Positions 24,255-29,566 of a stretch of 64,000 bases of DNA are shown piece after piece. This DNA comes from Mycolicibacterium xanthum (GTDB lineage Bacteria; Actinomycetota; Actinomycetes; Mycobacteriales; Mycobacteriaceae). The translations under genes were made by a program, and so were the position numbers. Within the stretch, counting starts at the first letter, position 1; each line of letters opens with the position of its first letter. The notes under the pieces are model-generated. The model saw only the letters and a program-made list of their open reading frames with translations. It searched no databases and was not told where the DNA came from. Where the stretch lies: contig NZ_JAIFZS010000006.1 in the NCBI RefSeq assembly GCF_019710635.1, forward strand, positions 62,001 through 126,000, in the 5' to 3' direction.

Positions 24255-25055
24255 TTACCCGTGCCGGCCGGCCACCGCGACCTGCGGGCCGAACAGTCCA
24301 CCGCTCAACCGCACCTCGATCGCCGGGTCGGCCGCGGCCGCCAGGGCGCGCAGCGCCGACGGGCTGTAGGCGCGCAACGAGCTGATCACCCCGTCGTGCA
24401 CGAACGGCACCACCGGGGCCAACGGCAGCACCGTGGCCAGCCGCAGCAGGTGCAGCGGTGCGGGCGGCCGCGGCAGGTCGATCACGAGCAGCTTGTCGGC
24501 GGCGCGGGTGCCCTCGGCGAGCACCCGGGCCGCCGCCACGGGCGGCAGGTGGTGCAACGACAGCGCGATCACCGCGAGGTCGAACTCACCGTCGGCGGCG
24601 TCGAGGTCGGTGGCGTCCATCCGCCGCACCTTGGCGCGCGGATGGCCACCGAGCTCGCCTGCGGCGATCGCGGCGACCGAGGACGGCTCGACATCGGTCA
24701 CCGTGACCCGGGCGCTCGGATGCCACTCCAGCAGCTTGGCCGACAGCTTGCCGTGCCCGGCGCCGAGTTCGAGGATCTTCGGGTCGGCGACGTCGGCGAC
24801 TTCGTCGAGGGCGAGTTTCGCGAACCGCTCATGGTTGCCGAACACCTCGCCGGTCCACTCCAGCGCGCGGATGACGCTGCGCTTGCGCGCCTCGAGGGCA
24901 GCGTCGCCGGTGGAGTCGCGATCGAGGTACTCGGTGAGCCCGGTCTGCAGCAGCCGGTCCAGACATGACGCGTCCGGCCCGCCGCGCGGCATCGCGGCGA
25001 TGCCGGTGCCGGCGTCGCCGGCGGTCATGTCGGTGTCGGTTGCCACGTGGTCCAT
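24255..25055 (-). CDS. Class I SAM-dependent methyltransferase
   Basis: About 266 residues. SAM motif [37 protein letters not shown], and [13 protein letters not shown]. The C-terminal part ([30 protein letters not shown]) is hydrophobic and may touch membrane or a lipid. Start uncertain: ATG 25058, 25055, GTG 25046 or ATG 25028; no clear binding site for any, suggesting leaderless expression. The first two place it within 10 bp of the divergent glpK start, so promoters of the two genes must overlap coding sequence. Confidence 0.72.
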
Positions 25056-25064
25056 CATGGACGA

Positions 25065-26585
25065 ATGCCGGCCGATTTCGTCGCAGCCATCGATCAGGGC
25101 ACCACCAGCACCCGGTGCATGATCTTCGACCACGACGGCGCCGAGGTCGGCCGTCACCAGCTCGAACACGAGCAGATCCTGCCCAGGGCGGGCTGGGTGG
25201 AGCACAACCCGGTCGAGATCTGGGAGCGCACCGTGTCGGCGGTCATGACGGCGCTGAACACCACCAGGCTCGGTGCCGGTGACCTCGCCGCACTGGGCAT
25301 CACCAACCAGCGCGAGACCACGCTGGTGTGGAACCGCCGCACCGGCCGGCCGTACTACAACGCCATCGTCTGGCAGGACACCCGCACCGACCGGATCGCC
25401 GCCGCACTGGACCGCGACGGTCGCGGCGACGTCATCCGGCACAAGGCGGGGCTGCCGCCGGCGACCTACTTCTCCGGCGGAAAGCTGCAGTGGCTGCTGG
25501 AGAACGTCGACGGGCTGCGGGCCGATGCGGAGCGCGGCGATGCGCTGTTCGGCACCGCCGACAGCTGGGTGGTGTGGAACCTCACCGGCGGTCCGCAGGG
25601 CGGCGTGCACGTCACCGACGTCACCAACGCCAGCCGCACCATGCTGATGAATCTCGAGACGCTGGACTGGGACGACGAGCTGCTGTCGTTCTTTTCGGTT
25701 CCGCGGGCGATGCTGCCCGAGATCAGGCCGTCGTCGTCGCCGGATCCGTACGGGTTGACCCACCCGGCGGGACCACTCGACCACGAGGTACCGCTGACCG
25801 GGATCGTCGGCGATCAGCAGGCCGCGATGATCGGCCAGGTCTGCCTGACCGCCGGCGAGGCCAAGAACACCTACGGCACCGGCAACTTCCTGCTGCTGAA
25901 CACCGGCGAGGACATCGTGCGCTCGCGCCACGGGCTGCTGACCACGGTGTGTTATCAGTTCGGTTCGGCCAAGCCGGTCTACGCGCTGGAGGGCTCGATC
26001 GCGGTGACCGGTTCGGCCGTGCAGTGGCTGCGCGACCAGCTCGGCATCATCAGCGGAGCCGCGCAGAGCGAGGCGCTGGCGCGTCAGGTCGACGACAACG
26101 GCGGGGTGTATTTCGTGCCCGCCTTCTCCGGGCTGTTCGCACCGTACTGGCGTTCCGACGCGCGCGGCGCGATCGTCGGGTTGTCCCGGTTCAACACCAA
26201 CGCGCACCTGGCCCGGGCGACGCTGGAGGCGATCTGCTATCAGAGCCGCGACGTCGTCGACGCGATGGAAGCCGATTCCGGTGTGCATCTCGAGGTGCTC
26301 AAGGTCGACGGCGGCATCACCGTCAACGATCTGTGCATGCAGATCCAGTCCGACGTGCTCGGCGTCGACGTGGTGCGTCCGGTGGTGGCCGAGACCACCG
26401 CGCTGGGCGCCGCCTACGCGGCCGGGCTCGGTGTCGGGTTCTGGGACGGCCCCGACGAGCTGCGGACCAACTGGCAGGAGGGCAAGCGCTGGACGCCGAA
26501 CTGGTCGCAGCAGCAGCGCACGGCCGGGTATGCGGGGTGGCAGAAGGCCGTGCAGCGCACGCTGGACTGGGTGGACGTCGAGTGA
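25065..26585 (+). CDS. glpK: Glycerol kinase
   Basis: 506 residues. Phosphorylates glycerol to glycerol 3-phosphate. FGGY kinase marks: [15 protein letters not shown] at the N-terminus, [19 protein letters not shown], and the C-terminal [22 protein letters not shown] and [16 protein letters not shown]. Its TGA overlaps the ATG of the lasso peptide B gene, so glpK and the lasso genes could share a transcript. The gene corresponds to Rv3696c by recalled synteny. Confidence 0.95.
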
Positions 26586-27313
26586 TGGCCTGGGTAGACC
26601 CGTCGCGGCACGGACCCGGCGAATCGGTGCTGGCGAAGCAGTGGTTCGTCAGTCCGCACGCCGCCACAGCGGTCGTCGAGGAGCATCTCGTGCTCCTCGA
26701 TTTGTGGGCCGGTGAGTACTCGGTGTTCGATCGGGTCGCCACACGTTTCTGGGTGCATTCGACCTCACCCTGGCCCAGCCGGATCTCCGCTGAAGAGCTG
26801 GCCGACCAGTTGGGCGCACCGCGCACGGTGATCGAGCAGGATGCGGCACTGTTCATCGCCGAGCAGATCCAGGCCGGTTGGCTGCAAGCCCGTCCGTCGC
26901 AGCCGGCGGCTGCGACCCCGGACACCGTGCCACGGTCCCGACCGTCGATTGCGGCGGCGTGGAAAGCGCGGCTACGCGCCGATCGGCTCCTCAAGCGCGG
27001 ATTCTGGCCGGCCTACGACGCGCTGGTCCGGCCCATCGCTGTGGAGGCATCCCCTCGTGTGCCGATCGATGTCGCTGTGGCCAAGTTTGCCGCGGCCGAG
27101 AATCTCTACCCGAGCCGTGATGCACCGATGGACTGCTTACCACGCTCGATGGCCCTCGCCCGATTTCTGCGATGCGCCGGATGGCCTGCGGAACACGTGC
27201 TGGGAGTTCGGCTCTATCCGTTCGAAGCTCACGCGTGGGTGGAACTGCAGCGAACTCCGATTCATGACCGTACCGACGTCGGCGGCGTGTACACGGTGAT
27301 CAACCGGCGATGA
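26585..27313 (+). CDS. Lasso peptide B protein: fused leader-binding (RRE) and leader peptidase
   Basis: 242 residues. Residues about 15-105 are a PqqD-like RiPP recognition domain (VVEEHLVLLDLWAGEYSVFD, then a winged helix up to AEQIQAGWL). Residues about 150-242 are the transglutaminase-like lasso peptidase with Cys184 (MDCLPRSMALARFLR), His216 (YPFEAHAWVEL) and Asp228 (IHD). Actinobacterial lasso loci usually split these into B1 and B2; here both are in one chain. The function is to bind the precursor leader and cut after Thr-Gly. The gene starts on the last base of glpK's stop codon and overlaps the cyclase gene by 4 nt. GC content falls visibly from about here. Confidence 0.9.
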   Translation: MAWVDPSRHGPGESVLAKQWFVSPHAATAVVEEHLVLLDLWAGEYSVFDRVATRFWVHSTSPWPSRISAEELADQLGAPRTVIEQDAALFIAEQIQAGWLQARPSQPAAATPDTVPRSRPSIAAAWKARLRADRLLKRGFWPAYDALVRPIAVEASPRVPIDVAVAKFAAAENLYPSRDAPMDCLPRSMALARFLRCAGWPAEHVLGVRLYPFEAHAWVELQRTPIHDRTDVGGVYTVINRR

Positions 27314-29067
27314 CGAACGGGCTGTCGCGGTTGAACGGTTTCCTGGTTTGGCGTCTCCCGTCAGAACGGGTGCGCGGGTGGCCGGAACCGGTGGAGGCCC
27401 ATGGACTGGCAGTGTGGTTTTACGGTTACCTTGCCGCGGAAGCCGGTCACCCGACCGGGTCGCACCGGTCGCGCCACTACGAGAACTGCGAACTGGTTGC
27501 CGCTGCGTACCGGCGATGGGGGACGGGCTTCGGTCAGCGCCTGCATGGCGAATACTGCGCGGTGATCGCGGACGGCCCGACAGTCGTCGCCGGCGGGGAC
27601 CGGATGGGCCTGCGTCCGCTCTATTTCTCCAACAGCGCTGACGTGATCGTCATATCGAGCGATCTAGGCGCGACAGCCCGCGAGCTGCGCGCCGACTCGA
27701 TCGATGAAATCTACATCGCTGACCTGCTCGCTCGTGGCAGGCACCTGGGAACTCGCACCCCGTACAGCGAGATCAGCCGTCTCGGAATCGGCCAGGCGGC
27801 GAAGTGGTCGGACGCCACTGGACCGAAGCTCTCGGTCGAGTGGCGGCCGACCATCGGCTGCGCAACAGGAGATCTCGAGGCGCAGAAGAACCGGCTGGTC
27901 CGCGCCGTCGATATCGCGGTCGGGAATTCGGCACCGGAAGGTGCCGTCGCGGTGCATCTCTCGGGAGGCCTTGACTCGAGCACGCTGCTCGCCTGTCTGC
28001 CCCCCGACCGCGACGCGCACGCGATCAGCACCGTGTTCACCGAACAGCCAACATGCGACGAACGTGAATGGATCGCGGCGGCGCTGCGAAACAACTCGGT
28101 TCCGTGGCATCCGATCGACGTCAGTCGATGCCTTCCGTTCTCGGCAGGGCCCGCCTTCGACCACTTCATCGCTGCACCGAGCTACGCGACGGTCACCTGG
28201 GCGCAAGACCTCGCCGAAGATGAGATCGCCCGAGAGGTAGGAGCCACCGCGATCCTCACCGGCGAAGGCGGGGATGAAGTGTTCTCCGCGGGCGCGCTCC
28301 CATGGCACATCGCAGATCTGCTGCGGACGGGAAACTGGTGGGCAGCATGGCGGCAGGCCCGTTGGTGGAGTTCGGACTCGCCTGCGCCCCGCCCCGCGAC
28401 GTATTGGCTGTCGCGCTCGGGATTTCGCGGGTGGATGAACTGGCGCCGCGGAACCGACCTCTTGATGCGCCCGACGGCGCCGGTGTCGATAAACGCGCCG
28501 TGGCTGGCGGCGGACTTTGTTCAATCCGAGAATGCCCGCGCAGGTGAATCGGCGCGAAGCGAACTGCGCGCACTTCGTGTCGACCAACAAGCGGTCTGGG
28601 AGGGGATCGTGCACGCGGCCGAAACAGTGCGCAGCAGCTATCCTTTCACCGCGCATCGGGTGGATACCAGACATCCGTTCCTGTCGCCCGAGATGGTGGA
28701 TGTGGCGTTGTCCACCCCGTGGCAAGCGGGTGTGGATCCCCGCATCGATCGCGCTGTCCAGCGCTACGCCTTCGCGGGTCGAGTCAGCGAAACCACACTG
28801 CGGCGACGTTCGAAGGCGACAACGGATCTCGCCATCTTCCGCGGTCTCGAGCAGGCATCCGACTGGATCGAACTGCTTTGGGAATCACCAGAGATCGCAA
28901 GACGGGGCTATGTGGATCTCGCTCGGTGGCGGGAATCCATCGATCGCTCGACAGTGGGCTGGCTGTATTCGGTGCACCATTTCAAGGCTGCGGTGCAAAT
29001 CGAACACTGGCTGTCTCAGCTGCATCGGATGGGACGTCCGCAGCTCCTGCGAGTGGCCCCGCCCTGA
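27310..29067 (+). CDS. Lasso peptide cyclase (C protein), asparagine synthetase-like
   Basis: 585 residues. An N-terminal glutaminase-like fold without a catalytic Cys2 (starts MTNGLSRLNGF), then the ATP-pyrophosphatase/synthetase domain with PP-loop SGGLDS at residues 218-223, GEGGDE at 318-323 and VDTRHPFLSPEMVDVAL. In lasso biosynthesis it adenylates the ring Asp and closes the macrolactam with Gly1. The lack of a glutaminase nucleophile and the B gene upstream separate it from a true AsnB. One 60-nt sample (28081-28140) is about 60% GC against about 78% for a sample in glpK (25381-25440), consistent with later acquisition. Confidence 0.9.
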   Translation: MTNGLSRLNGFLVWRLPSERVRGWPEPVEAHGLAVWFYGYLAAEAGHPTGSHRSRHYENCELVAAAYRRWGTGFGQRLHGEYCAVIADGPTVVAGGDRMGLRPLYFSNSADVIVISSDLGATARELRADSIDEIYIADLLARGRHLGTRTPYSEISRLGIGQAAKWSDATGPKLSVEWRPTIGCATGDLEAQKNRLVRAVDIAVGNSAPEGAVAVHLSGGLDSSTLLACLPPDRDAHAISTVFTEQPTCDEREWIAAALRNNSVPWHPIDVSRCLPFSAGPAFDHFIAAPSYATVTWAQDLAEDEIAREVGATAILTGEGGDEVFSAGALPWHIADLLRTGNWWAAWRQARWWSSDSPAPRPATYWLSRSGFRGWMNWRRGTDLLMRPTAPVSINAPWLAADFVQSENARAGESARSELRALRVDQQAVWEGIVHAAETVRSSYPFTAHRVDTRHPFLSPEMVDVALSTPWQAGVDPRIDRAVQRYAFAGRVSETTLRRRSKATTDLAIFRGLEQASDWIELLWESPEIARRGYVDLARWRESIDRSTVGWLYSVHHFKAAVQIEHWLSQLHRMGRPQLLRVAPP

Positions 29068-29208
29068 TCGTCCCCGCGCCGCGGTGGCTCTCGTTGGAGC
29101 GGCAAGTGCGGTAAATCTGCGTCAAATCCACGCCGTGGGAAGAGTTCCGCTGTAGCATCGGTCACGCACGTCGACCCAGATGGCGATCTATATAGGGGAG
29201 CATCTCCG

Positions 29209-29373
29209 ATGGAGCAGAAATACCGCCGGCCTCGTGTTCTTGCGACAGGCGATGTCCGTACATTGACCGGTGGACGCAAGCAGAACCGGATCAGCGATCC
29301 TCGTGGCGGAATGGGTCCGGAGGATTTCTACTCCGACTCAGTTTCAACCGTAGCGCCGCTGCCCGCGCGCTGA
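29209..29373 (+). CDS. Lasso peptide precursor A1
   Basis: 54 residues. Leader (1-21) contains Tyr5-x-x-Pro8 and GDVRTLTG, matching the lasso leader pattern Y-x-x-P ... G ... L-T-G with Thr at -2. Core starts at Gly22: GRKQNRISD places Asp9 for a nine-membered Gly1-Asp9 ring, followed by PRGG, a bulky FY pair at core 19-20, and a tail ending DSVSTVAPLPAR. The core is 33 residues, long for a lasso peptide. GGGGAG lies before ATG 29209; TATATA just upstream may be part of a promoter. A gap of 141 bp separates it from the cyclase gene. Confidence 0.87.
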   Translation: MEQKYRRPRVLATGDVRTLTGGRKQNRISDPRGGMGPEDFYSDSVSTVAPLPAR

Positions 29374-29404
29374 CGCTGAACGCCGGTTCAGGAGAGCGAT
29401 TTCG

Positions 29405-29566
29405 GTGAGCAAGGCGTACAGGCCTCCGCGCGTCGTTGCTCGTGGCGATGCACGCATTTTGACCGGCGGTAAGAAGGGTGGGCCGCTTAGCGATCCGCGA
29501 GGCGGCTACACGGAGAAGAATTTCGCTGACTCGGTGTCGTGCACGGCTCCGCTGCCGCAACGTTGA
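29405..29566 (+). CDS. Lasso peptide precursor A2
   Basis: 53 residues, GTG start with AGGAGAG eight bases upstream. Leader (1-21) has Tyr5-x-x-Pro8 and GDARILTG. Core begins Gly22: GKKGGPLSD again gives a Gly1-Asp9 ring, followed by PRGG, Phe19, and tail ADSVSCTAPLPQR. It is a clear paralogue of A1 with the same spacing to Asp9, the SDPRGG motif and the C-terminal block conserved while ring residues differ. A single Cys in the tail (core 25) could link to another molecule. Lies 31 bp after A1. Confidence 0.87.
   Translation: MSKAYRPPRVVARGDARILTGGKKGGPLSDPRGGYTEKNFADSVSCTAPLPQR

Follow-up and report, generated by a model that had tools for sequence, protein, structure and literature searches.

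A mycobacterial family of predicted lasso peptides with long cores and a conserved C-terminal tail block

Lasso peptides are well known, and so are long lasso tails. The longest tail in a 2026 review is that of pandonodin, 18 residues within a 33-residue core (PMC13352647). Pandonodin belongs to class IV, which carries a tail-tail disulfide, and the literature that we searched describes no conserved tail block in it of the kind reported below. With regard to processing, TbiA/TbiB1 and fusilassin (TfuB1) combine an RRE fold, a leader with Thr at position -2, a B2 peptidase and an asparagine-synthetase-like C protein. Lasso antibiotics often have mycobacteria as their targets. The literature searched yielded no characterised lasso peptide of mycobacterial origin.

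Here we analysed a stretch of 64,000 nt (the window) from Mycolicibacterium xanthum, a member of a mycobacterial genus with a genome of 5.55 Mb. A lasso cluster spans window positions 26585-29566 on the plus strand and consists of the genes B (242 aa) and C (585 aa), followed by two precursor genes, A1 and A2. Its parts are as follows.

26585-27313, plus strand: B, an RRE (residues about 17-100) fused to a B2 transglutaminase-like leader peptidase, 242 aa, from profile matches
27310-29067, plus strand: C, asparagine-synthetase-like macrolactam cyclase, 585 aa, from Pfam Asn_synthase
29209-29373, plus strand: A1, predicted lasso precursor gene, 54 aa, from its YxxP leader, Thr at -2, core with Gly1 and Asp9, and orthologue in Mycobacterium sp. 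PO1
29209-29271, plus strand: A1 leader, 21 aa, KYRRP...GDVRTLTG, Thr at -2
29272-29298, plus strand: A1 predicted ring G1-D9 (GRKQNRISD), with Asp9 counted from the N-terminus predicted after leader removal
29335-29370, plus strand: A1 conserved tail block, DSVSTVAPLPAR, from homologue alignment, selection analysis and motif scans
29405-29566, plus strand: A2, second predicted lasso precursor gene, 53 aa, GTG start, 58% identical to A1
29468-29494, plus strand: A2 predicted ring G1-D9 (GKKGGPLSD), from homologue alignment
29528-29563, plus strand: A2 conserved tail block, DSVSCTAPLPQR, carrying the only Cys, from homologue alignment and motif scan

The B protein was assigned as a B2 leader peptidase by the NCBIfam model NF033537 (lasso_biosyn_B2; 58.4 bits, cut-off 33) and matched Pfam Transglut_core3 with an e-value of 3.6e-17. 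Its N-terminal part matched the lasso RRE TbiB1 (PDB 5v1u; 5.1e-8) and thus qualifies as B1, while the match to Pfam PqqD stayed below the cut-off. The best fold matches of the predicted B structure (pLDDT 71) were TbiB1 and TfuB1, with a probability of 1.00 and an e-value of only 3e-3. Among homologues, Cys184 and His216 of B are invariant. C was recognised as a cyclase of the asparagine synthetase type by Pfam PF00733 (Asn_synthase; 99.5 bits, 4e-28). Its best NCBIfam models are lasso and albusnodin macrolactam cyclases, which it matched below their cut-offs (NF033535, 103 versus 525; NF033561, 111 versus 300), and its SGGLD and TGEGGD motifs are invariant across the clade. An AlphaFold model of C was set aside as too poor (pLDDT 48). 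Upstream, the stop codon of a glycerol kinase gene, glpK (25047-26585), overlaps the B start codon by one base (TGATG, window 26583-26587), an arrangement that suggests translational coupling of the lasso genes to glpK in the window. In PO1, glpK is not located upstream of B.

A1 is composed of the leader MEQKYRRPRVLATGDVRTLTG and the core GRKQNRISDPRGGMGPEDFYSDSVSTVAPLPAR (33 residues), and A2, which starts 31 bp after A1, of the leader MSKAYRPPRVVARGDARILTG and the core GKKGGPLSDPRGGYTEKNFADSVSCTAPLPQR (32 residues). These core lengths agree with those in the initial annotation. Both leaders are of the YxxP type, with KYRRP or AYRPP followed by TLTG or ILTG before Gly1, an arrangement kept in the homologues. 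Thr at -2 is an invariant hallmark of lasso leaders (PMC10885120), and it is present in both precursors together with Gly1, Asp9 and Phe19. The predicted acceptor, in lasso peptides an Asp or Glu at position 7 to 9, is Asp9 in A1 and A2 and Asp8 in PO1 and Mycolicibacter. The leaders, cores and B and C genes fit lasso biosynthesis, and A1 and A2 are predicted lasso precursors by these sequence features. The tail pattern D-S-V-S-x-x-A-P-L-P-x-R and Phe19, described before as shared by the two cores, were found in both, and a tail Cys occurs in A2 only of this pair. The motif SDPRGG is common to A1 and A2 as claimed, but it does not stand just after the ring: S8 and the presumed acceptor D9 lie within the ring, and only PRGG follows it. 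Because A1 and A2 are paralogues, 58% identical, the pair by itself is weak evidence; conservation between them was therefore rejected as proof, and homologues were needed.

The cores resemble pandonodin in length, since the 32-36 residues found across the family match or exceed its 33. They differ from class IV (pandonodin, LP2006), which has two tail Cys, in possessing none (A1) or one (A2). The only Cys in the M. engbaekii homologue is core residue 23, within the hinge described below. Compared with TbiA/TbiB1 and fusilassin, the window cluster has B1 and B2 fused, the gene order B-C-A, a C protein remote from the curated models and a core of 32-36 residues. Outside mycobacteria, the nearest C that we found (28.7% identity over 95%) is encoded, also next to a fused B, on the Pedobacter sp. 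ANT_H27B plasmid pA27BH1 (NZ_MN657144.1). That cluster differs in its order A-B-C and in a predicted core of about 20 residues (GSRDSVDDDPGTSGYKYTKT) lacking the tail block. The cluster (L132 5367-8216) adjoins a Tn3-family transposase gene, and the existing annotation of its 61-aa precursor goes no further than "hypothetical protein". Another genus of Mycobacteriaceae, the same family, contains a lasso-like cluster with an asparagine-synthetase-like C (G396, L129); here, C is distant (E 2e-32), an ABC transporter gene lies nearby, and the short precursor candidate ends in GVSGRRRKL, without the tail block.

We searched 396 genomes of the genus for C and found its clade in the window genome and in 9 of the 395 other sampled species. 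In scans of genus, family and class, this clade was seen in mycobacteria only, the family and class scans yielded no other close C, and no members were added when more relatives and more genomes of the genus were sampled. A separate contig scan used two short patterns that favour close relatives; its outcome holds among the matches listed, and intermediate homologues may escape. The precursor sample comprises about ten sequences, all belonging to a single genus as GTDB defines it. Mycobacterium sp. PO1 is nearest, with a C 66-67% and an A protein 83% identical to the window C and A1, respectively. In the eight other genomes (Mycolicibacter species, the genome G016 and one matching Mycolicibacterium iranicum), C is 42-45% identical. 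A phylogenetic tree of C joined the window sequence to that of PO1 and gathered all other members in a second clade. A long path lies between the two clades, and the Pedobacter plasmid C falls outside both; the long branches of the tree are themselves unsure. The PO1 cluster shares several neighbouring genes with that of the window, and the Mycolicibacter cluster is located elsewhere. Every cluster examined has the order B-C-A with a fused B and A downstream, and B, C and A are the only genes conserved among the clusters. No copies of A were found on plasmids or phages, and for C the distant Pedobacter gene was the only such find. Weak A-like matches in four genomes (G146, G349, G144, G012) were dismissed as chance, as these genomes have no lasso B2.

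In the M. iranicum relative, the precursor (L045 9849-10030; also L032) is frameshifted between leader and core, with B and C open; either the gene is disrupted or there is an error in the assembly. The tail there, in a different frame from the leader, reads DTPDTVAALPPR. Such a frameshift shows that decay occurs in the family and would be expected if the reading frames were chance ORFs or parts of a decayed cluster. We consider this scarcely credible for A1 and A2, as orthologous open frames are under purifying selection in several genomes and B and C are intact with their catalytic motifs.

Homologues were then compared along the core, as the initial annotation had proposed. All intact homologues contain a gap-free block of 12 residues, D-[ST]-[VP]-[SDE]-x-[VAT]-A-P-L-P-x-[RK], even where C is only ~43% identical and ring and loop sequences differ, and this block keeps its length across the two deeply separated C clades. 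The PO1 core reads GKQNRIADPRGGMGPKDFYS-DTVSNVAPLPER and the Mycolicibacter core GSGNYLSDSSTGYGYMGWY-xRxx-DTPDT(V/A)APLPPR, with one residue more in some. A homologue with the same B and C lacking the tail block, the observation that would speak against a tail function, did not turn up in either of two overlapping draws from the genus (396 and 212 genomes). Written as degenerate DNA, the tail motif matched the window twice (29335, 29528) and 100 shuffled sequences not once; in 142 fetched loci, every match traced falls in these A genes. Between the clades, full cores can be aligned (A1 versus algericus, 0 of 20,000 shuffles as good; A2, p 0.004), and the alignment is much weaker without the tail (score 29 versus 56, p 0.003). 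Identity between clades is 48% in the leader, 50% in the ring, 25% in loop and plug and 57% in the tail, where the first D and the residues A, P, L and P are invariant. The column-permutation test of tail against ring plus loop between clades gave a marginal p = 0.086, in part because chemistry fixes Gly1 and the acceptor Asp.

Selection analysis allowed us to ask whether the tail is kept by shared ancestry only and trimmed by host carboxypeptidases. All homologues do share ancestry, and truncated lasso products arising from endogenous carboxypeptidases are known (PMC13352647). However, the tails of window A1 and PO1 differ at 8.0 of 10.8 synonymous sites, close to saturation, and at 3.0 of 25.2 nonsynonymous sites, and the block persists where the C genes fall to about 43% identity, which makes this explanation very unlikely. 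Since synonymous sites changed freely while residues were kept, purifying selection on the protein maintaining the last 12 residues is well supported by the sequences. The earlier suggestion that conservation this far from the ring points to a function is thereby strengthened: the tail was selected while the knot diverged, and it probably serves a function of its own.

Within Mycolicibacter, the core can be divided into three parts: ring, loop and plug, which do not vary; a variable hinge of four residues; and, after it, the conserved tail. Ring and loop show no amino-acid change (pN/pS 0, pS 0.38-0.52), and pN/pS is 0.65 in the hinge (positions 20-23), 0.26 in the tail and 0.20 in the leader. 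A variable hinge flanked by two constrained parts suggests two modules and indicates that the Mycolicibacter tail is a unit apart from the knot. The hinge could also be the linker beside a cut, if the tail were a follower that is removed after recognition; cores without the tail would have 20-23 residues, leaving a lasso of about that size, which is normal. We regard a removable follower as improbable, given that no additional peptidase common to the clusters examined is available for its removal, the hinge contains no conserved cleavage motif, and no lasso system with a natural follower was found in the literature searched.

A further explanation, unlikely yet deserving serious weight, is that the tail stays in the product as a biosynthetic recognition element bound by B or C, perhaps preorganising or threading the core. 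It is conserved about as strongly as the leader, a known recognition element (pN/pS 0.26 versus 0.20), and occurs with this B/C clade only. Against this, other lasso systems tolerate tail changes, truncations and fusions (PMC13003496; PMC8498205), and between clades the tail is more conserved than the enzymes (57% versus about 43%).

The roles initially suggested for the tail, recognition by a target or an exporter or removal as a follower, are not told apart by these data, but the exporter is weakened. The clusters share no transporter gene; no ABC gene was found beside B, C and A in the window or PO1, and the dedicated ABC exporter (D gene) of lasso clusters is thus missing there. Mycolicibacter genomes carry, convergent to the precursor gene, a conserved ABC exporter-like gene (626 aa; L019 7830-9707, minus strand; orthologues in L020-L025). 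It was rejected as an obligate partner because neither the window nor PO1 has it next to the cluster, and because a 64% identical orthologue occurs in a cluster-free genome (G020), in which we found neither such a C nor a remnant lasso cluster beside the transporter gene. In the M. iranicum relative, B is immediately preceded, on its own strand, by a gene for an SbmA/BacA-like ABC transporter (L130 9773-11683, minus strand). Mycolicibacter nonchromogenicus (L025 4550-4972) and the M. iranicum relative (L130 6413-7135) both have a gene for a small DUF6636 protein in the vicinity of the cluster.

We tentatively favour the explanation that A1 and A2 represent a mycobacterial long-tailed lasso subfamily whose retained tail docks to a conserved mycobacterial partner encoded outside the cluster. 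By analogy with the family, the RRE of B would bind the leader, B2 would cut after the residue following Thr-2, and C would join Gly1 to Asp9. Aromatic residues at positions 18-20 may lock the thread (Phe19 or Phe19-Tyr20 here, Trp18-Tyr19 in Mycolicibacter). The tail would then begin just beneath these lock candidates, with about 12-16 residues left below the lock, and would stay in the mature peptide as a docking segment, joined to the knot by the variable hinge in Mycolicibacter. Ring and loop would be the part that varies between lineages. Pandonodin still matures with tail truncations of up to 9 residues and with long C-terminal extensions (PMC13003496), so a tail need not be conserved for the sake of maturation alone, and docking after maturation appears the likeliest reason for conservation. 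Because no transporter, and no peptidase beyond B, is common to the clusters, any partner would be a general cellular one or encoded elsewhere. More speculatively, and on balance doubtful, the APLPxR tail could be a second recognition module, with a conserved mycobacterial partner reading it as a C-terminal address or as a natural follower; the peptides would then carry a variable knot on a constant handle.

Neither a mycobacterial long-tailed family nor a conserved lasso tail block was described in the open papers searched, subscription journals lying mostly outside this search, and the novelty of the family is provisional. A long-tailed family with a selected tail would make it possible to ask directly whether the tail of a lasso peptide can act as a functional module in its own right. 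Such a tail would also be a natural precedent for placing cargo or addresses on lasso C-termini, so far mostly a matter of engineering.
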